Shown one piece after another: positions 9,245 through 55,889 of a stretch of DNA of 56,017 nt. The notes under the pieces are model-generated. The model saw only the letters and a list, made by a program, of their open reading frames with translations. It was not told the DNA's origin and ran no database searches. Made by a program: the position numbers and the translations under genes. Source of the stretch: Spirochaetae bacterium HGW-Spirochaetae-4 (GTDB taxonomy: Bacteria; Spirochaetota; Spirochaetia; Sphaerochaetales; Sphaerochaetaceae); contig PGXU01000018.1 in assembly GCA_002839335.1 (NCBI GenBank), forward strand, positions 2,075-58,091, in the 5' to 3' direction. The number at the start of each line of letters is the position of its first letter. Position 1 is the first letter of the stretch.

Positions 9245-9302
9245 CGTACCTGGTACCGGTTTTGCGTTTTGCATACAAAATTGAATTTTGGTGCCAGGCA
9301 CC
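9245..9302. repeat. 58-bp three-palindrome element, copy 1
   Basis: Left arm CGTACCTGGTACC (9245-9257), core TTTTGCATACAAAA (9267-9280), right arm GGTGCCAGGCACC (9290-9302); both spacers are 9 nt. The right arm carries paired changes (A to G and T to C) that keep the palindrome, evidence that arm symmetry itself is maintained. It starts 4 nt after the stop of the DUF885-like gene. Confidence 0.93.
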
Positions 9303-9348: not shown

Positions 9349-9406
9349 GGTACCTGGTACCATCCTTAGATTTTGTATACAAAGGAGAACTTCCATGCCT
9401 GGCACG
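9349..9406. repeat. 58-bp three-palindrome element, copy 2 (gives the start of the DUF3795 gene)
   Basis: Left arm GGTACCTGGTACC (9349-9361), core TTTTGTATACAAAG (9371-9384), right arm CATGCCTGGCACG (9394-9406). The left palindrome extends outward as AAGGAT/ATCCTT. The sequence AAAGGAG at the core edge serves as ribosome site, and ATG 9395 inside the right arm is the start codon. Confidence 0.92.
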
Positions 9407-9949
9407 TATGCGGAATTTTCGCTCTGTGGGTTGAACTGCGGGCTGTGTCCCCGGTATCACACGAACGGTCCCTCGCGCTGTCCCGGTTGCAGGGGTCCTC
9501 GGTTCGGGGAGGTGCATCCGACGTGTCCGATCATCAGGTGCAGCGAGCACCATGGCAATGTGGAATATTGCCACCAGTGCATTTCGTATCCGTGCGAACG
9601 CTACCGGGAGACACCTGCAACCGATTCTTTCATCACCTATGTGCCGCGTCTGGCCGATCAACGGCGTGCCTTGGAATTCGGTATGGATACGTATCGGCAG
9701 GAATTGGACGAGAAGATCGGCATCCTCAAACATCTGCTCGCTATGTATGACGATGGACGGCGCAAGGGATTCTACTGCCTTGCGGCAAACTTGTTGGATC
9801 TCCAGTCGTTGCGTGGAACTGTGGAACGTGTCGAGCGGATCGTTGCCCAAACGCCCATGGAACGCAAGGAATGTGTGCGGTTGATGGTCTCGACTATCGA
9901 AGAGACCGCCGGAAAGCGGAACGTATCGTTGCGCTTGCGGGGCAAATGA
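9395..9949 (+). CDS. DUF3795 domain-containing protein
   Basis: 184 aa, Cys-rich N terminus: LCGLNCGLCPRY, CPGCRG, HPTCPIIRC, YCHQCISYPCERY, the pattern of DUF3795 proteins (probably metal or Fe-S binding; function unknown). ATG 9395 with AAAGGAG 9 nt upstream is the start. Both the ribosome site and codons 1-4 (MPGT) come from repeat copy 2, so this gene's translation start is built from the repeat. A decayed partial copy of the gene lies at 15521-15616. The stop codon lies within the left edge of the structured repeat at 9944. Confidence 0.85.
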   Translation: MPGTYAEFSLCGLNCGLCPRYHTNGPSRCPGCRGPRFGEVHPTCPIIRCSEHHGNVEYCHQCISYPCERYRETPATDSFITYVPRLADQRRALEFGMDTYRQELDEKIGILKHLLAMYDDGRRKGFYCLAANLLDLQSLRGTVERVERIVAQTPMERKECVRLMVSTIEETAGKRNVSLRLRGK

Positions 9950-13382: not shown

Positions 13383-13482
13383 ATAGTCGAGTGTTCCAAT
13401 TAAGTCAGGGGATGACAAGTTTTTCACGTTTTGAATTCACATGGACTTTTATTTGAAGCATCACATTTATGAGGAGGCCCAA

Positions 13483-14787
13483 ATGGCAAACCAAACGGAT
13501 ACATCGAAGAAGCTGTTCATCGAGGCACAGAAATATCTGGTGGGAGGAGTGGCGAGCTCGTTGCACAAGGCTGAGCACGAGGAGTACCCAATCTACGCTT
13601 CACACGGGAAAGGCTCCAGGCTGTGGGACGTGGACGGCAATGAGTACATCGACTATATGGGTTCCTTTGGTCCCTCCCTGTTGGGTTTCAGCCCTGATGA
13701 GCTGAACCGTGCGGTGATCGCTCAGATCGAAAAGGGGACTCACTTCGCCTTACCGACAGAGTCGGTGAACAAGTTGAGCCGCCGATTGGTGGAGGTTATT
13801 CCATGCGCGGAGGTGGTAGGCTATCAGAGTTCCGGCACTGAGGCGAACCTGGTGAACTACCGCCTCGCGCGCTCATTCACAGGGAAAAGCAAGATCATCA
13901 AGTTCGAGGGACACTACCACGGGTGGGCCGACGAGCTGAGCGTGAGTGTGAAACCGATGTCGCTTAAATCGATGGGACCGCGCAACAAACCGTGGAAGTG
14001 CCTCGAGAGCGCGGGTCAGTTGGCGGGCTCGGCGGATGAAATCATCGTGCTGCCATGGAATGATATCGATATCCTAGAGAAGACAATCAAGCGATACAAG
14101 CATGAGATAGCAGCGGTGATCACCGAGCCTGTGATGTACAACGCCGAGCCGATCAAACCGTTGCCCGGATATCTGGCTGCGATGCGACAGCTGACGAAGG
14201 ATAACGATATCCTACTCATATTCGACGAGGTGATTACGGGCTTCCGGGTCGCCCTCGGAGGAGCGTCGCAACTGTACGGGGTGATACCCGACCTTGTGAC
14301 GTTTGCGAAAGCGTTCGCCGGCGGCTATCCGATTGCAGGAGTTGCGGGACGCCGAGAGATCCTGGAATGTGGAGTGCACCCCGCGGGGACATTCAATGCT
14401 AATCCGCTGTGCGTCGCCGCTGCGATTGCCACCATGGATATTATCAGCAGACCGGGGACGTACGAAAACTTGGAGCGGATTACCGGAAGGATAAAGCAGG
14501 GTGTGAACGAGCTTGCGGCTCGGTATGGGGTGAAGCTGTGGTGTGATAACCAAGTGTCGATCTGGCAGATGAGCTTCGGCATCGACTCGCCGATGACCGA
14601 TTTCCGGGACAACTTCAAGGTGGACAAGAAGACCTATCTTAACTTCTACAAGCGGTGCTTGGACCGGGGGGTGCGTCTGCACTCTGGACGCGGACGCTTC
14701 TATATCTCAACTGCTCATACTGACAAGGATGTCGACAAGACATTGGAAGTGTTCGAAGAGGTCTTCAAGGAGATGTTTGGAAAGTAG
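13483..14787 (+). CDS. GSA-2,1-aminomutase-like PLP enzyme (class III aminotransferase fold), copy 1
   Basis: 434 aa from ATG 13483, behind GAGGAGG; the alignment with its paralogue at 19725 starts at the same place (DTSKKLF/ETSKKLF), so the longer frame from 13441 is rejected. Motifs: SSGTEANLVNYRLAR, HYHGWAD, LIFDEVITGFR and Schiff-base Lys K276 in FAKAFAGGYPIAG. Annotation as glutamate-1-semialdehyde aminomutase is by homology only; with no haem genes around and a TRAP importer upstream, a catabolic aminotransferase, mutase or amino-acid epimerase of the same fold is more likely. The two copies are about 85-90% identical by eye, although their TRAP genes differ strongly. Confidence 0.85.
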   Translation: MANQTDTSKKLFIEAQKYLVGGVASSLHKAEHEEYPIYASHGKGSRLWDVDGNEYIDYMGSFGPSLLGFSPDELNRAVIAQIEKGTHFALPTESVNKLSRRLVEVIPCAEVVGYQSSGTEANLVNYRLARSFTGKSKIIKFEGHYHGWADELSVSVKPMSLKSMGPRNKPWKCLESAGQLAGSADEIIVLPWNDIDILEKTIKRYKHEIAAVITEPVMYNAEPIKPLPGYLAAMRQLTKDNDILLIFDEVITGFRVALGGASQLYGVIPDLVTFAKAFAGGYPIAGVAGRREILECGVHPAGTFNANPLCVAAAIATMDIISRPGTYENLERITGRIKQGVNELAARYGVKLWCDNQVSIWQMSFGIDSPMTDFRDNFKVDKKTYLNFYKRCLDRGVRLHSGRGRFYISTAHTDKDVDKTLEVFEEVFKEMFGK

Positions 14788-15491: not shown

Positions 15492-15520
15492 TTGATAGTC
15501 ACCAAATTGATATATTGGAC

Positions 15521-15616
15521 AACGCAAAGGTTTCTACTGTCTTGCGGCAAACTTGTTGAAATTCCATTCGTTGCATGAAACTGTGGAACGTATCGTTGCG
15601 TTTGCGGGGCAAATGA
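15521..15616 (+). pseudogene. Remnant of a DUF3795 gene
   Basis: The segment from CGCAAAGG to GGGGCAAATGA matches the end of the DUF3795 gene at about 9758-9950 with scattered substitutions and an internal deletion of about 80 bp. Both sequences share TTGCGGCAAACTTGTTG and ACTGTGGAACGT. The homology continues into the downstream flank (GAAGAAAGGT.TCGGATTCCG), so the copy came with flanking DNA. No start codon or Cys-rich N terminus is left. Confidence 0.75.
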
Positions 15617-16640: not shown

Positions 16641-16698
16641 CGAACCTGGTACCAATTTTCAATTTTGTATACAAAAACCAACATCAGTACCTGGTACG
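16641..16698. repeat. 58-bp three-palindrome element, copy 3
   Basis: Left arm CGAACCTGGTACC (16641-16653), core TTTTGTATACAAAA (16663-16676), right arm AGTACCTGGTACG (16686-16698). It separates the mazEF region from TRAP operon 2. The 139 bp before it (16502-16640) show no gene or recognisable motif. Confidence 0.92.
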
Positions 16699-19690: not shown

Positions 19691-19724
19691 TCATTCTCTA
19701 AGCAAACACCGTTAGGAGGTTCGT

Positions 19725-21035
19725 ATGGAAATCCATACAGAGACATCGAAGAAGCTTTTTCAAGAAGCCCAACAGTACCTGGTAGGCGGCGTGGCCAGTT
19801 CCCTGCACAAAGCCGAACATGAAGAATATCCGATCTATGCTTCGCATGGGAAAGGTTCCCGTATCTGGGATGTGGATGGCAACGAATACATCGACTACAT
19901 GGGTTCGTTCGGACCCTCGCTCCTCGGTTTCTCACACGCCGAACTCAACAAGGCCGTCTACGAGCAGATAGAGCGCGGCACGCACTTCGCGTTGCCCACC
20001 GAGTCGGTGAACCAACTCTCCAAGAGACTGGTCGAGATCATCCCCTGTGCCGAGGTGGTAGGCTACCAGAGCAGCGGTACCGAGGCAAACCTGGTCAACT
20101 TCCGTCTTGCACGCTCCTTCACGGGAAAGAGCAAGATCATCAAGTTCGAGGGACACTACCACGGATGGGCAGATGAGCTGAGCATCAGCGTCAAGCCCCT
20201 GTCCTTGAAATCCATGGGACCCCGCAACAAGCCCTGGAAGTGCCTGGAGAGCTCCGGTCAACTCGAGAGTGCCGCTGCCGAGATCATCGTGTTACCCTGG
20301 AACGATATAGATATCTTGGAAAAGACGATCAAACGCTACAAGCATGAGATCGCGGCGGTCATAACCGAACCGGTCATGTACAACGCCGAGCCGATCAAAC
20401 CGTTGCCGGGATATCTGGAGGCCATGCGCGAGCTGACGAAAGACAACGATATCCTGCTCATATTCGATGAAGTCATCACCGGTTTCCGCGTCGGCCTTGG
20501 TGGAGCCCAGGAACTCTACGGAGTCACTCCCGACCTCGTTACCTTCGCCAAGGCCTTTGCCGGCGGGTATCCGATCGCGGGTGTGGCCGGACGGAGGGAA
20601 ATACTCCAAAGTGGTGTCCACCCTGCCGGAACCTTCAATGCCAATCCGCTGTGCGTCGCAGCTGCGATAGCCACCTTGGATATCATCGGCAGGCCCGGCA
20701 CCTACGAGAACATGCAGCGGATCACCGATAGGATCAAGGACGGGGTGAACTTCCTCGCCTCGCGCTACCGGGTCAACCTCTGGTGTGACAGCCAGGTTTC
20801 GATCTGGCAGCTCTCTTTCGGTATAGACGGGCCCATGCGCGATTATCGCGACAACTTCAAGGTCGACAAGCGGACCTATCTCGATTTCTACAAGCGTTGT
20901 CTGGACCGTGGAGTCAGGTTGCACTCGGGACGCGGGCGCTTCTATATTTCGACTGCCCATACGGACAAGGATGTCGACAAGACCCTTCAAGTGTTCGAAG
21001 ATGTCTTCAAGGAGATGTTCAACAACCATGTATGA
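19725..21035 (+). CDS. GSA-2,1-aminomutase-like PLP enzyme (class III aminotransferase fold), copy 2
   Basis: 436 aa, collinear with the 13483 protein and about 85-90% identical by eye; Schiff-base Lys is again K276 (FAKAFAGGYPIAG). The start follows TTAGGAGGTTCGT. It overlaps the N-acyl-D-amino-acid deacylase gene by 8 nt, so the PLP enzyme and the deacylase are made together. This context favours action on an amino acid released by deacylation (transamination, epimerisation or amino shift) rather than tetrapyrrole synthesis. Confidence 0.85.
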   Translation: MEIHTETSKKLFQEAQQYLVGGVASSLHKAEHEEYPIYASHGKGSRIWDVDGNEYIDYMGSFGPSLLGFSHAELNKAVYEQIERGTHFALPTESVNQLSKRLVEIIPCAEVVGYQSSGTEANLVNFRLARSFTGKSKIIKFEGHYHGWADELSISVKPLSLKSMGPRNKPWKCLESSGQLESAAAEIIVLPWNDIDILEKTIKRYKHEIAAVITEPVMYNAEPIKPLPGYLEAMRELTKDNDILLIFDEVITGFRVGLGGAQELYGVTPDLVTFAKAFAGGYPIAGVAGRREILQSGVHPAGTFNANPLCVAAAIATLDIIGRPGTYENMQRITDRIKDGVNFLASRYRVNLWCDSQVSIWQLSFGIDGPMRDYRDNFKVDKRTYLDFYKRCLDRGVRLHSGRGRFYISTAHTDKDVDKTLQVFEDVFKEMFNNHV

Positions 21036-24636: not shown

Positions 24637-24694
24637 AGTACCAGGTACCGTTTTTCAATTTTGCATACAAAATGTAAATATGGTGCCAGGTACC
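24637..24694. repeat. 58-bp three-palindrome element, copy 4
   Basis: Left arm AGTACCAGGTACC (24637-24649), core TTTTGCATACAAAA (24659-24672), right arm GGTGCCAGGTACC (24682-24694). It begins at the base after the TAA of the LarA-like gene and ends 7 bp before the marR operator. Confidence 0.93.
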
Positions 24695-27374: not shown

Positions 27375-27432
27375 GGTACCTGGCACCAATTTTCAATTTT
27401 GTATACAAATTGGTAAAACGGTACCTGGTACC
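27375..27432. repeat. 58-bp three-palindrome element, copy 5 (encodes the GGDEF protein tail)
   Basis: Left arm GGTACCTGGCACC (27375-27387), core TTTTGTATACAAAT (27397-27410), right arm GGTACCTGGTACC (27420-27432). Read on the minus strand it supplies the last 12 codons (VPGTVLPICIQN) and the stop of the diguanylate cyclase gene. 27230-27374 otherwise holds only the upstream region of the barrel-protein gene. Confidence 0.93.
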
Positions 27433-29067: not shown

Positions 29068-29125
29068 GGTACCTGGTACCATTTTTCAATTTTGCATACA
29101 AAACGAAAAACAGGTACCTGGTACG
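29068..29125. repeat. 58-bp three-palindrome element, copy 6
   Basis: Left arm GGTACCTGGTACC (29068-29080), core TTTTGCATACAAAA (29090-29103), right arm GGTACCTGGTACG (29113-29125). The stop codon of the minus-strand SLC13 gene (29126-29128) directly abuts it. Confidence 0.93.
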
Positions 29126-30558: not shown

Positions 30559-30616
30559 TGTACCAGGTACCGATTTTCGATTTTGTATACAAAGTTCGAA
30601 ACCGGTACCTGGTTCG
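30559..30616. repeat. 58-bp three-palindrome element, copy 7
   Basis: Left arm TGTACCAGGTACC (30559-30571), core TTTTGTATACAAAG (30581-30594), right arm GGTACCTGGTTCG (30604-30616). The stop codon of the minus-strand barrel-protein gene (30617-30619) directly abuts it. The spacers GATTTTCGA and TTCGAAACC make this copy symmetric beyond the arms. Confidence 0.93.
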
Positions 30617-31834: not shown

Positions 31835-33949
31835 ATGCTCACCCATATCCTGAAACGCGACGGACAAATGGTTTTCTGCGATGGACAGAAGATCGCCAAC
31901 GCCATCGCCAAGGCCGCCAAAGCGGCGGGCGAAGCCATCGACACCGAAACAACGACCCGTCAGGTGCTCAATGAGGCTGCGGCGCTCGGAACCGAACAAC
32001 TGGATGTCGAAACCATCCAAGACCTCGTGGAAAAGCAACTCATGCATGATGGCGCCGTAGCGACCGCGAAAGCATATATCCTGTATCGCGAGGAGAGGCG
32101 GAAGGTGAGGGAAGGACGAATTCTGATAGACGCTACACAACAGCTGTTCCATGACTATCTGGACGACAAGGATTGGTTGATCAAGGAAAATGCCAATACC
32201 CGCAAGTCTGTCAACGGCATGAACAACTACATCCGCGAATCGTTCACCAAGCGGTATTGGTTACATGAAGTGTACCCCCAGAACATCAGGGAAGCCCATC
32301 TCTCCGGTGCCTTCCACATCCACGACCTCGGGTTTTTCGGCACCTATTGTTGCGGATGGGATTTGCACCAGTTGTTGACCATGGGATTCGGTGGCATCTC
32401 CGGGAAAGTCTCCTCACAACCGGCCAAGCACTTGCGATCCTTGCTCGGGCAATTGGTGAACGCCACATTCACCACCCAGGGGGAAAGTGCCGGAGCACAA
32501 GCCTGGTCTTCAATCGACACCTATTGTGCTCCCTTCATCAGGCGAGACAAGCTTTCCCAAGTCGAAGTCAAGCAAGCGGTCCAGGAATTCATCTTCAACC
32601 TCAACGTTCCCACACGGGTAGGTTTCCAATGCCCGTTCAGCAATCTCACCTTCGACTTGACTGTCCCGAAACGGATGCGCGATCAGAGTGTGGTTATCGG
32701 TGGAGAAGCCCAGGAAGAAACATACAAGGAATTCCAACACGAAATGGACATGTTCAACCTCGCCTTTTGCGAGGTGATGATGGAAGGTGATGCGAGCGGC
32801 CGGGTCTTCACATTTCCCATTCCCACGATCAATGTCACCAAGGATTTCCTCTGGGAGGGGCCGGTCGCAGATGCGATCATGGAGATGACCTGCAAGTACG
32901 GCATTCCCTATTTCTCCAATTACATATCGAGCGACTTGTCGCCGGAGGATGCGCTTTCCATGTGTTGCCGACTGCGCCTCGATACCACCGAGCTCCGCAA
33001 GCGCGGGGGCGGATTGTTCGGATCCAACCCACTGACCGGATCGATCGGGGTGGTCACATTGAACTTGCCCCGACTCGCCTTCCAGTCCGAAAGTGTAGCG
33101 GATTTTCATATGCGGCTGTTGGAATTGGCTGATCTTGCTTCCGAGAGTCTCGAGTTGAAACGCAAGGTCGTCGAGAAGGAGACCGATCGGGGCATGTACC
33201 CTTTCAGTGCCCGCTGGTTAGCCGGTATCAAGCAACGCGAAGGCTCGTATTGGGCGAACCATTTCAGTACCATCGGGTTGGTCGGTATGCAGGAGGCGTG
33301 TCTGAATCTATTGGGTGATGCCGGAGCCCTGACAACTATGCAAGGACAGCAATTCGCTCTGGATACGATGGAGATGCTACGGGATCGGATCACTACCTAC
33401 CAAAGCATGACCGGCCATTACTACAACCTTGAGGCTACTCCCGCCGAGGGAACCAGCTATCGGTTGGCCAAGCTCGACAAGGAAACCTTCGGCGATATCG
33501 TCACCGCCGGTACCGATGTTCCCTACTATACCAACTCCAGCCAACTTCCGGTCGGATACACCGACGATTTGTTCGAGACGTTGGATTTGCAGGATGCGTT
33601 GCAGTGCCAATATACCGGAGGTACAGTCCTGCACCTTTACCTGGGTGAACGTATTCCCGATATCTCTGTGGCCAAGACCTTGCTACGAACAATCTTTTCC
33701 AAATACAAGCTTCCTTATGTATCATTGACTCCGACCTTCTCCACCTGCGAAGACCATGGGTACCTGGTCGGCGAACAGCTCGTGTGTCCCACATGTGGCA
33801 AGGAAACCGAGGTCTGGACTCGTGTCGTCGGCTACCTCAGGCCGGTTCGCGACTTCCACCCGGGGAAGAAGGAAGAGTATCGTGAACGCAAGCTCTACTC
33901 GGTCCCTCTCGGAACCACAGCCGATGGGAATCTGGCGCTATGCGAATAG
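31835..33949 (+). CDS. nrdD: Anaerobic (class III) ribonucleoside-triphosphate reductase
   Basis: 704 aa. N-terminal ATP-cone (about 1-95: ILKRDGQMVFCDGQKIANAIAKAAKAAG), catalytic barrel, and C-terminal zinc/glycyl-radical region: STCEDHGYLVGEQLVCPTCG and then RVVGY, with radical Gly G666. It reduces NTPs to dNTPs under anaerobic conditions after activation by NrdG. The start has AGGAGG 5 nt upstream. It overlaps nrdG by 10 nt. Expression is predicted to fall when B12 is present, which implies a B12-dependent class II reductase elsewhere in the genome. Confidence 0.95.
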   Translation: MLTHILKRDGQMVFCDGQKIANAIAKAAKAAGEAIDTETTTRQVLNEAAALGTEQLDVETIQDLVEKQLMHDGAVATAKAYILYREERRKVREGRILIDATQQLFHDYLDDKDWLIKENANTRKSVNGMNNYIRESFTKRYWLHEVYPQNIREAHLSGAFHIHDLGFFGTYCCGWDLHQLLTMGFGGISGKVSSQPAKHLRSLLGQLVNATFTTQGESAGAQAWSSIDTYCAPFIRRDKLSQVEVKQAVQEFIFNLNVPTRVGFQCPFSNLTFDLTVPKRMRDQSVVIGGEAQEETYKEFQHEMDMFNLAFCEVMMEGDASGRVFTFPIPTINVTKDFLWEGPVADAIMEMTCKYGIPYFSNYISSDLSPEDALSMCCRLRLDTTELRKRGGGLFGSNPLTGSIGVVTLNLPRLAFQSESVADFHMRLLELADLASESLELKRKVVEKETDRGMYPFSARWLAGIKQREGSYWANHFSTIGLVGMQEACLNLLGDAGALTTMQGQQFALDTMEMLRDRITTYQSMTGHYYNLEATPAEGTSYRLAKLDKETFGDIVTAGTDVPYYTNSSQLPVGYTDDLFETLDLQDALQCQYTGGTVLHLYLGERIPDISVAKTLLRTIFSKYKLPYVSLTPTFSTCEDHGYLVGEQLVCPTCGKETEVWTRVVGYLRPVRDFHPGKKEEYRERKLYSVPLGTTADGNLALCE

Positions 33950-34653
33950 CGGGTATCCAAAAGACCACACTGCTCGACTTTCCCGGGCGTGTGGCTTGTG
34001 TGGTGTTCACACAAGGGTGTCGGTATGATTGCTATTACTGCCATAATCGCACGATGGTACCTGGTACCAATTTGGGATTTTGTATACAAAATTCATTTTC
34101 GGTACCTGGTACCGACTTATTTTCCTTCCTTACCAGCCGGGTAGGGTTGCTCCAAGGCGTGGTGGTCAGCGGTGGTGAGCCTACCGAGCACGAGGACCTT
34201 CCCGAACTTGTGGATGGGATCAAGCGGCTGGGCTTCGAAGTCAAGCTTGATACCAACGGATCATCGCCGATGATGGTCGATGAGTTGTTGAGCCACCATC
34301 TGGTCGATTATGTTGCGCTCGATGTAAAAGCTCCGTGGAACCGGTATCGAGAAATATGTGGAGTTCGGGCCGATCCGGATACAGTAGAGCAAACATTGCA
34401 TCTTTTGCAGCGGTTAGACATCGGTTGGGAGGTGCGGACAACAGTCTGTCCAACGTTGGACGAGTACGATATGCGAAAGATTTCGCGTCAGATCGGGCAA
34501 GTCCCTACATGGCGATGGAATCCCTATCGGATCCCGCCGCTTTACAAGAAATCTGATGCCGACCGGGTGATGGCAACGTGTGCATCTGCCGAAACCTTGC
34601 GAAAGTGGTCAATCAAACTCCAGGTTGTGCATAGGAAAATTGTCGTTGGATAG
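33940..34653 (+). CDS. nrdG: Anaerobic RNR-activating protein (radical SAM) with a repeat-encoded loop
   Basis: 237 aa. Radical SAM cluster motif CRYDCYYC at about residues 28-35, then VVVSGGEP (SAM-binding GGE) and KLDTNGSSP. It generates the glycyl radical on NrdD from SAM with its [4Fe-4S] cluster. Right after CYYCHNRT the sequence is MVPGTNLGFCIQNSFSVPGT, encoded by repeat copy 8 (34056-34113), and the normal sequence resumes at LFSFLTSRVGLLQG. In usual homologues this linker is a variable loop of similar length, so the fold may tolerate it. Frame is kept throughout. Confidence 0.92.
   Translation: MRIAGIQKTTLLDFPGRVACVVFTQGCRYDCYYCHNRTMVPGTNLGFCIQNSFSVPGTDLFSFLTSRVGLLQGVVVSGGEPTEHEDLPELVDGIKRLGFEVKLDTNGSSPMMVDELLSHHLVDYVALDVKAPWNRYREICGVRADPDTVEQTLHLLQRLDIGWEVRTTVCPTLDEYDMRKISRQIGQVPTWRWNPYRIPPLYKKSDADRVMATCASAETLRKWSIKLQVVHRKIVVG
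34056..34113. repeat. 58-bp three-palindrome element, copy 8, inside nrdG
   Basis: Left arm GGTACCTGGTACC (34056-34068), core TTTTGTATACAAAA (34078-34091), right arm GGTACCTGGTACC (34101-34113). It is entirely within the coding sequence and read without stop as VPGT...FCIQN...VPGT. Both arms and the core match the consensus perfectly, so this copy is either young or under constraint. Confidence 0.95.
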
Positions 34654-37765: not shown

Positions 37766-38161
37766 ATGAAGGAAGACAAGGTACCGTTCATGAATACGGA
37801 GGCACCGACTCCGTCGGGTCCATACTCTCAGGCGATTATCGCCAACGGTTTTATATTTGTTGCCGGACAGCGTCCACAGGATCCGGTAACCGGTGCCATA
37901 AGCGACGATGTACAGGATCAGACCAGGCAATGCTTGCAAAATGTGAAGGCAATATTGGATGCCGCGGGTTCTTCGATGGCGAACGTCGTCAGAACCAACG
38001 TCTACCTTTCCGATATCGCCGATTTTGCGGCGATGAACGAAGTCTATAGCGCAATGATTCCCGAACCTTATCCAACCCGAACCACCGTCGGTGCCCAGTT
38101 GCGGGGGATCAAGGTCGAGATCGAGGTTATTGCGTTGCAAGGTACCAGGTACGAAAAATGA
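37766..38161 (+). CDS. ridA: RidA family enamine/imine deaminase with a repeat-encoded C terminus
   Basis: 131 aa. APTPSGPYSQAIIANGFIFVAGQRPQDPVTG and RTNVYLSDIADFAAMNEVY with TRTTVGAQLRGIKVEIEVIAL (catalytic Arg) are standard RidA. It hydrolyses reactive enamines/imines formed by PLP enzymes. After the natural end (VIALQ) the last residues GTRYEK and the TGA lie in repeat copy 9. The TGA overlaps the dapB ATG (ATGA at 38158-38161). Confidence 0.92.
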   Translation: MKEDKVPFMNTEAPTPSGPYSQAIIANGFIFVAGQRPQDPVTGAISDDVQDQTRQCLQNVKAILDAAGSSMANVVRTNVYLSDIADFAAMNEVYSAMIPEPYPTRTTVGAQLRGIKVEIEVIALQGTRYEK

Positions 38162-38198
38162 ATTTTGTATACAAAACTGAAAATCGGTGCCAGGTACA
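38141..38198. repeat. 58-bp three-palindrome element, copy 9, forming the ridA-dapB junction
   Basis: Left arm GGTACCAGGTACG (38141-38153), core TTTTGTATACAAAA (38163-38176), right arm GGTGCCAGGTACA (38186-38198). The left spacer AAAAATGAA contains both the ridA stop and the dapB start. The dapB frame runs through the core and right arm (NFVYKTENRCQV). Confidence 0.95.
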
Positions 38199-38994
38199 TT
38201 GCAAAGCAATACTCTCCGGTGCATGTGGCAGGATGGGAACCAAGATACTCGCCGCTGCCGCCCAAACGGATGATATCAGGATCGTAGCAGCCATCGGCCG
38301 TTCGGGTAGCGATTGCATCGGCAAGGAGCTTGCCGGTGGGATTGTCGTGCAAGATGCATTGGTTCCCAGTCTCGCGGGCGATGAAATCCTCATTGAATTT
38401 TCGACACCACAAGCGACGATGGACCACCTCAAGATCGCTGTCGCCTCAAGAATACCGGTGCTTATCGGAACGACCGGACTCTCAGCGGCCCAGACTGCCC
38501 TGATCAGCCAAGCAGCACAGAGTATTCCCGTGTTGGTCTCCCACAATTATGGCATTGGGATGAACGCGTTTTGGGAAATCCTCAAGGTCGCCACCCGATA
38601 CTTGGGACATGATTACGATATCGAGGTCATCGAATTCCACGCGAACAACAAGCCGGATGTGCCCAGCGGTACAGGTGGAACCATCGCACGGATCATTGCG
38701 GAGGAGCGGGGTGATGCCTTGGAGGACGTGATTCGCTACGGCCGTGACAAGAACACGGCAAACACGAGGAAACCCAAGGAAATCGGTATGCATTCCCTTC
38801 GTGCCGGCAGCTATCGCTCGGACCACACGGTGATTTTCGCAGGCAATGGGGAACGCTTGGAGTTCACCCATCGTGAAGAGGACTCTTCCATTATCGCCAG
38901 AGGTGTTCTATGGGGCCTGCGATTCCTCAACGGACGTGCTCCCGGCCTCTATTCGATGGGCGATGTGCTGAAATACGTGCCTGGCACCAATTAA
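38158..38994 (+). CDS. dapB: 4-hydroxy-tetrahydrodipicolinate reductase with repeat-encoded termini
   Basis: 278 aa. NAD(P) loop SGACGRMGTKI, IGTTGLS, the DapB signature EVIEFHANNKPDVPSGTG, and RAGSYRSDHTVIFAGNGERLEFTHREEDSSIIARG. Lysine/DAP pathway. The family normally starts a few residues before GACGRMG; here MNFVYKTENRCQVHC precedes it and comes from repeat copy 9. No other ATG, GTG or TTG lies in frame between the repeat and the Gly-rich loop, so the repeat ATG must be used. The end (YVPGTN, then TAA) lies in repeat copy 10. Confidence 0.93.
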   Translation: MNFVYKTENRCQVHCKAILSGACGRMGTKILAAAAQTDDIRIVAAIGRSGSDCIGKELAGGIVVQDALVPSLAGDEILIEFSTPQATMDHLKIAVASRIPVLIGTTGLSAAQTALISQAAQSIPVLVSHNYGIGMNAFWEILKVATRYLGHDYDIEVIEFHANNKPDVPSGTGGTIARIIAEERGDALEDVIRYGRDKNTANTRKPKEIGMHSLRAGSYRSDHTVIFAGNGERLEFTHREEDSSIIARGVLWGLRFLNGRAPGLYSMGDVLKYVPGTN

Positions 38995-39033
38995 TGATTT
39001 TGTATACAAAATCGAAATTCGGTACCAGGTACT
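38976..39033. repeat. 58-bp three-palindrome element, copy 10 (end of dapB)
   Basis: Left arm CGTGCCTGGCACC (38976-38988), core TTTTGTATACAAAA (38998-39011), right arm GGTACCAGGTACT (39021-39033). The left arm has compensating G/C changes that keep the palindrome. It supplies the dapB stop and ends 4 nt before the stop of the convergent dehydrogenase gene. Confidence 0.94.
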
Positions 39034-47932: not shown

Positions 47933-48982
47933 ATGCATATGGAACAGAAGAACAGGCTCGGGCGGGTAGTGTCTCCAGGTGTCGTCGACTATATCGAACG
48001 GCCGGTTGCCGCGTTGTCGGCGACGCAGGTGCGCATTGCCGTCAAGGCAAGTGCCATCTGTGGTTCCGATTTGCATATCTTCAAGGGAATGCATCCCTTC
48101 TGCAAACTGCCGGCAACGGTCGGCCACGAGTTTTCGGGAGTCGTAACCGAGGTTGGCAGTAGCGTCTCCCGGTGGAAAATCGGGGATCGGGTGACTGTGG
48201 AACCGTGCATCACCTGTGGGGTGTGTGAAGAATGCCGCAGTGGGAGCTATAGCTATTGCGAGCATATCACGTTCCTCTATCGCAATGGCGATGGGGCCAT
48301 GGCCGACCATGTGGTTGCCGAGGGCGACCATGTCTTCGCCTTGCCGGATGACCTTTCCTTCGAGGCTGGTGCACTGATCGAGCCGCTTGCTGTGGCTACC
48401 CATGCCGTACGTCGGGCCGATATCGCTCTCGGCCAGTCGGTGGTGATCATCGGGGCCGGTGCGATCGGCGTGTTGGTTGCCGCCATGTGCCGGCACTCTG
48501 GTATCAGCAGGGTCGCGGTGGTAGATACGGTCGATAACCGGTTGGACCTGGCCCGGGCTTTCGGAGCCAGCCATACGATCAACGCGATGCGAGAGGATGT
48601 CGAGCAAAGGATCCGCGAATTCGGTGGTTCTGCCGGTGTGGACCGTACATTCGAATGCGTGGGACGGCAAGAGACCTTCGTGCAGGCTATGATGTGGTTG
48701 CGCAAGGGTGGCTTGGCGACGATGGTGGGCATTTTCGAGCAGACCGAGATCAGCATTCCGGTGACACGGTTCGTTTCACATGAGATCCGTGTACAGGGTG
48801 CGCAAGGTTACTGCTGGGATTTCCCGATAGCTCTCGATGTCGCCAAGGAGCTGGACTTGGAACGGCTGGTCACCCATACGTTCCCCATGGACCGACTCCA
48901 AGAAGCATTCGATACGGCCCTCGACCGGTCCAAGGCTCCAATGAAAATCCTATTGGTGCCAGGTACCAAAGTTGATAATTGA
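47933..48982 (+). CDS. Zinc-dependent medium-chain alcohol dehydrogenase with a repeat-encoded tail
   Basis: 349 aa from ATG 47933 (or 47939). Catalytic zinc: CGSDLHIF and GHEFSG; structural zinc: CGVCEECRSGSYSYC; NAD loop VIIGAGAIGVLVAAM. Sorbitol/threonine/L-galactonate-dehydrogenase-like. It directly follows the dehydratase (2-nt gap). Natural homologues end about MKILL; here VPGTKVDN follows and comes from repeat copy 11, including the stop. Confidence 0.9.
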   Translation: MHMEQKNRLGRVVSPGVVDYIERPVAALSATQVRIAVKASAICGSDLHIFKGMHPFCKLPATVGHEFSGVVTEVGSSVSRWKIGDRVTVEPCITCGVCEECRSGSYSYCEHITFLYRNGDGAMADHVVAEGDHVFALPDDLSFEAGALIEPLAVATHAVRRADIALGQSVVIIGAGAIGVLVAAMCRHSGISRVAVVDTVDNRLDLARAFGASHTINAMREDVEQRIREFGGSAGVDRTFECVGRQETFVQAMMWLRKGGLATMVGIFEQTEISIPVTRFVSHEIRVQGAQGYCWDFPIALDVAKELDLERLVTHTFPMDRLQEAFDTALDRSKAPMKILLVPGTKVDN

Positions 48983-49012
48983 ATACAAAATTGTCAATCG
49001 GCGCCATTTGCG
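48955..49012. repeat. 58-bp three-palindrome element, copy 11 (end of the Zn-ADH gene), diverged
   Basis: Left arm GGTGCCAGGTACC (48955-48967), core AATTGAATACAAAA (48977-48990), right arm GGCGCCATTTGCG (49000-49012). Length and spacing are kept although the right arm is degraded. It supplies the last codons and stop of the Zn-ADH. Confidence 0.82.
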
Positions 49013-49129: not shown

Positions 49130-49187
49130 GGTACCAGGTACCGATAATGACTTTTGAATACAAAACCGTAAACGCGTACCAGGTACC
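49130..49187. repeat. 58-bp three-palindrome element, copy 12
   Basis: Left arm GGTACCAGGTACC (49130-49142), core TTTTGAATACAAAA (49152-49165), right arm CGTACCAGGTACC (49175-49187). It shares the GAATAC core variant with copy 11, 117 bp away, suggesting local duplication. 49013-49129 holds nothing recognisable. Confidence 0.92.
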
Positions 49188-55800: not shown

Positions 55801-55836
55801 AGTACCAGGTACCATTTTTGAATTTTGTATACAGTT
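55801..55836. repeat. 58-bp element, copy 13, left part of a split copy
   Basis: Left arm AGTACCAGGTACC (55801-55813), spacer ATTTTTGAA, core TTTTGTATAC then divergence. The expected right arm is absent at the normal distance. Confidence 0.8.
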
Positions 55837-55847
55837 TGAACAATAAG

Positions 55848-55889
55848 ATACCCCAAATCTACACCTGAAGGTGAATCTGGGGTATTTGT
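55848..55889 (+). terminator. Intrinsic terminator between the two parts of repeat copy 13
   Basis: ATACCCCA...CACCT pairs with AGGTG...TGGGGTAT (55848-55885), with two small internal mismatches, followed by T-rich TTTGTT. It is a good end for the amino-sugar operon. Confidence 0.7.

Follow-up and report, generated by a model that had tools for sequence, protein, structure and literature searches.

A 58-nt imperfect palindrome of REPIN-like structure lies within the reading frame of nrdG in Spirochaetae bacterium HGW-Spirochaetae-4, and the copy at the same codon of nrdG in its sister species HGW-Spirochaetae-2 lies in the opposite orientation. Comparison of the two genes strongly supports an inversion of the element in place. 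Taken as a whole, we consider it likely that a RAYT-associated, REPIN-like copy entered nrdG in the common ancestor of the two species and was inverted later. We analyzed a 56,017-nt stretch of the HGW-Spirochaetae-4 genome (the window, to which positions refer unless a locus is named) and stretches around element copies in this genome (G000) and in the sister species (G001). A congener of the same genus (G002) was also searched. G000 and G001 are both fragmented draft genomes, and G001 is a MAG.

A palindromic element is part of the nrdG reading frame

The nrdG gene (33940..34653, + strand) was recognized from its open reading frame and by profile. It encodes a 237-residue, intact NrdG2, the radical SAM protein that activates anaerobic ribonucleotide reductase, and its start is overlapped by its upstream partner nrdD, which codes for anaerobic ribonucleoside-triphosphate reductase (31835..33949, +). 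The product scored 174 bits against the NrdG2 profile (TIGR02495), for which the curated cut-off is 131, and its CxxxCxxC motif (CRYDCYYC, residues 27-34, 34018..34041, +) is intact. No second full nrdG copy was found in the G000 genome, so that the pseudogene with an intact copy elsewhere, which a first-pass annotation had raised as an objection, is not what we found. The same annotation had placed a palindromic element at 34056-34113 inside nrdG, beside the radical SAM motif, and this placement was confirmed: the element lies at 34056..34113 (+), and the residues HNRTM separate the motif from the residues that the element encodes.

The element consists of two 13-nt arms of the form GGTACC-W-GGTACC, variable 8-nt spacers and a core, ATTTTGTATACAAAAT. 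In nrdG, the left arm (34056..34068, +) reads GGTACC-T-GGTACC with a CCWGG centre, the palindromic core (34077..34092, +) encodes FCIQN in the nrdG frame, and the right arm (34101..34113, +) again reads GGTACC-T-GGTACC. In the hairpin, the central T of the left arm stands opposite that of the right arm as a T.T mismatch. Read in frame, the element gives GTA-CCT-GGT-ACC, AAT-TTG-GGA, TTT-TGT-ATA-CAA-AAT, TCA-TTT-TCG and again GTA-CCT-GGT-ACC, which is translated as VPGTNLGFCIQNSFSVPGT. This segment is preceded by CRYDCYYCHNRTM and followed by DLFSFL...VVVSGGEP. The claim that the whole 58-bp copy lies in the nrdG frame thus held for the frame and for the encoded residues, but only 57 of the 58 bases form whole codons (19 in number), because the first G closes the preceding ATG. 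Compared with shuffled sequences, the nrdG copy folds into a strong hairpin both as DNA (z -4.3) and as RNA (z -5.2, -28 kcal/mol), and no shuffle folded as well. The RNA hairpin starts 116 nt into nrdG and is kept in both species. Given these z scores and the roughly 70 family copies per genome described below, we conclude that the nrdG palindrome is not a product of chance.

We compared the gene with NrdG relatives at 80 loci, which a search through 84,980 species genomes had yielded. The element occurs at the same codon in the sister species (locus L134), with identical boundaries on both sides, and the palindrome is absent from 79 other NrdG genes of the set. None of the 80 NrdG carries the same residues without the palindrome; the sister species has both. 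Between the third Cys of the motif and GGEP, 62 relatives have 35 residues and this NrdG has 43; among spirochaete relatives the distance ranges from 34 to 43. The 19 element codons occupy the place of about 11 loop residues in the relatives, a net gain of 8 codons, and the element therefore stands in for part of the variable loop. Judged from the alignment, the event was not a clean insertion but either a replacement or an insertion coupled to the loss of about 33 nt. This agrees with the proposal of the first-pass annotation that the frame was kept by loop replacement or by a small deletion. When we joined the flanks of element copies to search for empty sites, one clean site was found (L060 compared with L115, net about +60 nt), and it had no clear target duplication and no simple insertion boundary.

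Another spirochaete nrdG (L135:1539-2219, from the genome of L006 and L219) carries a perfect 12-bp palindrome, CAGCTGAGGGGT-8-ACCCCTCAGCTG, in frame in the same loop. Because this palindrome is unique in its genome, it appears to be locally made and not a member of a repeat family. The NrdG loop has inverted repeats in 10/78 cases and control stretches of nrdG in 19/312, only a mild excess for the loop.

The predicted NrdG fold matches that of pyruvate formate-lyase activating enzyme. In the AlphaFold2 model, mean pLDDT was 91.5 and fell below 50 only at residues 43-57, within the element-encoded part. The segment is thus predicted to be a floppy loop, disordered in an otherwise confident model. 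The extra Cys that it had noted in FCIQN is present as C49, inside the segment predicted as disordered.

The element belongs to a repeat family that looks REPIN-like

The window holds 13 copies of the 58-nt palindrome, including the one in nrdG. On the + strand, copies lie at 9245..9302, 24637..24694, 27375..27432 and 30559..30616, along with a diverged copy at 48955..49012. Those on the - strand lie at 9349..9406, 16641..16698, 29068..29125, 38141..38198, 38976..39033 and 49130..49187, and a partial copy of about half the element lies at 55801..55858. The copy at 38141..38198 is on the 5' side of the neighbouring gene, and its G001 ortholog (L056) lies upstream of a DapB domain. Searching both strands with a sequence model of the family returned 141 matches in G000 and 148 in G001. 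Since each palindrome is counted on both strands, these numbers correspond to approximately 70 copies per genome, an approximate figure because the number of candidates scored was capped. The stretches that we read contained 58 and 57 distinct copies, respectively. The density of copies in the window is about ten times the genome average (13 of about 70), and copies are confined to a limited set of contigs. The model matched nothing in the congener G002, nor in 26 of 28 other relatives searched; borderline matches (E about 0.004) were obtained in G008 (3) and G014 (1).

Most copies lie between genes or at gene edges. Among the orthologous pairs tested, nrdG alone has its element clearly in the interior of a gene, flanked left and right by conserved coding sequence. 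Other open reading frames that span elements were considered as intragenic cases and rejected: their recognized domains begin after the element, and the spanning parts are therefore probably 5' extensions. The copies are unusually free of stop codons, with a mean of 4.4 of 6 frames open as compared with 2.2 in dinucleotide shuffles, a difference to be read in light of the copies not being independent. As single-stranded DNA, element copies fold into hairpins with z scores of -2.8 to -4.4. The arm centre was A or T in 66/66 copies for both arms, and a central W.W mismatch is kept in the hairpin in 27/33 and 22/33 copies. The CCWGG motif is retained in nearly every copy of both species. The arms have drifted jointly between species, with GTACC dominant in G000 (89% A at the variable base) and the G001 copies nearer half GTGCC (59% A). 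In REP systems, a GTAG tag is thought to guide cleavage. We found no GTAG or CGTC tetranucleotide beside the palindrome, where the closest positions outside the arms carry no more than 0.18 bits, and the flanks of the elements have no conserved sequence. No relevant paper came to light when the literature was searched for the arm sequence.

Several other repeats were noted in the stretches examined. Where G001 has an element at L054:8481-8538, G000 (C103:11556-11623) holds a different palindrome of similar length, GGAACCAC...GTGGTTCC, which had no repeat in the stretches searched. An 80-nt repeat of 85% identity (9754-9833 and 15516-15595) and shorter repeats near it (9918, 10086, 15585 and 15599) are unrelated to the palindrome. 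The segments 13472-14083 and 19714-20325 are diverged duplicates, 72-79% identical, and are probably paralogous genes.

Both genomes encode one ortholog of a Y1_Tnp protein of the RAYT type (L003 in G000 and L035 in G001), and no RAYT ortholog was found in the congener G002. These proteins match PF01797 and, over its full length, the NF047646 (REP_Tyr_transpos) profile, although their NF047646 scores of 73.8 and 67.3 bits are under the NCBI cut-off of 80, and they keep the HxH motif (HYH) and the tyrosine region YIAWNPVKAG. A TAG closes the G000 frame (L003:202-906) about 36 codons short of where the G001 ortholog ends, and the G000 RAYT may therefore be truncated and that of G001 full-length. 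In both genomes, the RAYT gene is bordered by element copies. A distant RAYT of about 30% identity, in the family relative G007, has GTGCCWGGCAC on either side. The G007 genome contains 333 CGTGCCWGGCACG sites (at most 1 mismatch) as opposed to 3 for the reversed control, and this arm motif occurs at background counts in G002 and G009. Some of the G007 arm motifs form inverted pairs about 31 nt apart, as a large REP population. The flanks of the G007 RAYT and these motif counts are good grounds for associating the arms with this RAYT lineage. Taken together, the family looks REPIN-like, with a doublet of REPs and an associated RAYT transposase. Mismatches in the stem matter for TnpAREP of E. 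coli (PMC8266576), and by analogy the W.W mismatch may mark the strand here.

The nrdG element appears inverted relative to its ortholog

The nrdG elements of G000 and G001 are identical at 53 of 58 positions when one is inverted, and at 43 of 58 when they are compared directly. At the 20 asymmetric positions of the G001 element, 15 bases fit inversion only and 5 fit only the direct orientation. The arm-centre bases, too, both agree with inversion. The 100-base flanks are 99/100 and 93/100 identical between the species. Codon changes between the two genes are concentrated in the element, with 10 changes in residues 41-56 and two in codons 1-37. From whichever end it is read, the element keeps the same relative frame. 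Either orientation therefore encodes VPGT-x3-FCIQN-x3-VPGT, and only the six spacer residues change (NLG/SFS in one species and EKE/LKL in the other).

We also compared 26 orthologous pairs of single elements. In 24, the direct alignment was better; the nrdG pair was better inverted; and the pair at 16641 gave 4 against 5 and is uninformative, because its copy looks replaced. There was no convincing inversion in the 25 orthologous G000/G001 pairs other than nrdG. At 38976-39033, the arms appear exchanged relative to the G001 copy (L053:3367-3424), while the interior keeps its orientation; recombination, either inside a copy or between different ones, may show itself here as well.

An inversion in place has to be weighed against the possibility that elements of opposite orientation were acquired independently at the nrdG site, or that gene conversion overwrote one copy. 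Such an origin gains some plausibility from the small margin by which the inverted ortholog (53) exceeds the next-best copies, which score 51 and 50 of 58, and from the sites at L068:2093 and at 16641, which look replaced by other copies. It is nevertheless unlikely, as each nrdG copy, with one of the two inverted, has the other as its best match among all copies read, only 1 of 2076 non-orthologous comparisons reached 53, and the left and right boundaries of the element are identical in both species. Wrong orientation of the palindrome in one of the drafts would produce the same picture, and palindromes and repeats do stress assemblers, particularly in fragmented genomes of which one is a MAG. 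We regard such an artefact as highly improbable: a read of ordinary length exceeds the 58 bp of the element, and the other 25 pairs lack a comparable inversion. We conclude that inversion in place is strongly supported by the comparison of the two species. The mechanism would most likely be template switching, which between inverted-repeat arms is known to invert intervening DNA inside yeast coding genes (PMC8604942).

Two further explanations concern the reason for the element's presence in nrdG. It could be kept for a function, with the mRNA hairpin or a protein-binding site tuning translation or stability, or with the Cys acting near the cluster. The strength of the RNA hairpin and its retention in both species fit this idea, but the same element occurs at about 70 unrelated places, and the two species do not share the spacer residues, which are predicted to be disordered. 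The extra Cys derives from the TTTTGTATAC core, which is common to nearly all copies, and so need not be selected in nrdG. We consider retention for function quite improbable. A Rickettsia-type palindromic element, selected for in-frame insertion into proteins, would account for the stop-free copies and for an in-frame insertion in a conserved enzyme. Most copies, however, lie outside genes or at their edges, with nrdG as the single clear internal pair, and the element is 58 bp in length as compared with about 150 bp for RPEs (PMC10969869) and belongs to a RAYT-linked family, which together make that origin very unlikely. The parallel to Rickettsia elements drawn by the first-pass annotation therefore holds for the outcome, an in-frame element in an intact nrdG, and fails for the kind of element, which looks to be of REPIN type and is RAYT-linked, 58 nt long and mostly extragenic. 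Overall, its interpretation was partly supported, and the inverted sister copy lay beyond the letters of the window.

A model for the origin of the nrdG loop

We propose that the RAYT encoded elsewhere in the genome most likely recognizes a single-stranded DNA hairpin with GTRCCWGGYAC arms and spreads the element. Before G000 and G001 diverged, a copy would have been inserted into nrdG in the loop that follows the [4Fe-4S] motif, and an accompanying loss of about 33 nt would have left the frame intact. The outcome would be a flexible, presumably neutral 19-residue loop that NrdG appears to tolerate. A later inversion of the element in place, in one lineage, would most likely have come about when a polymerase switched templates between the two arms. 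A rather unlikely extension of this model is that the nrdG palindrome flips repeatedly, by template switching or through the RAYT, so that the loop alternates between two peptides without a frameshift; palindromes of non-GTAG RAYTs would then be a recurrent source of reversible in-frame loops.

The nrdG gene is thus a natural example of a REP-like mobile palindrome that was built into a conserved radical SAM enzyme and outlasted a species split, apparently being inverted in place while still translatable. Two aspects are new: the apparent flip of an intragenic copy, and a spirochaete RAYT lineage with non-GTAG arms. With repeats that lack GTAG, strand and target choice becomes testable in this lineage, and the conserved CCWGG with its frequent W.W mismatch is a candidate for that role in non-GTAG RAYTs.

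Comparison with known systems

Among the closest parallels are the REPIN/RAYT systems of P. fluorescens SBW25 and E. coli TnpAREP (PMC3116915, PMC8266576). As in those systems, a short inverted doublet forms a single-stranded DNA hairpin with a stem mismatch and is present in many, mostly extragenic copies; a single-copy HUH-tyrosine RAYT is flanked by copies; and the repeats are absent from the congener G002, which lacks the RAYT. Unlike those systems, the family described here has no GTAG tag, has GTRCCWGGYAC arms and a ATTTTGTATACAAAAT core, is strongly clustered (13 copies in the 56-kb window) and is accompanied by a divergent spirochaete RAYT that scores under the NCBI cut-off.

Intragenic GTAG/CGTC REPs can lie wholly inside genes and add residues in frame, sometimes as the only coding gene hit per species (PMC3733652). 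The nrdG element resembles them in being inside a gene and in adding residues in frame, whereas they carry GTAG or CGTC tags and it does not; the word "inversion" is absent from that paper. Rickettsia palindromic elements, about 150 bp long and nearly half intragenic in R. conorii (PMC10969869), resemble the nrdG element in that a palindromic repeat within a conserved enzyme gene is translated in frame; the 58-bp, mostly extragenic and RAYT-linked family differs from them in all three of these respects. Template-switch inversions in yeast involve perfect repeats with spacers of 2-5 bp (PMC8604942). The likeness to nrdG is that DNA between inverted arms is flipped within coding sequence, which produces clustered amino acid changes without a frameshift, and the difference is that in nrdG nearly the whole of a 58-bp mobile element appears to have been inverted.
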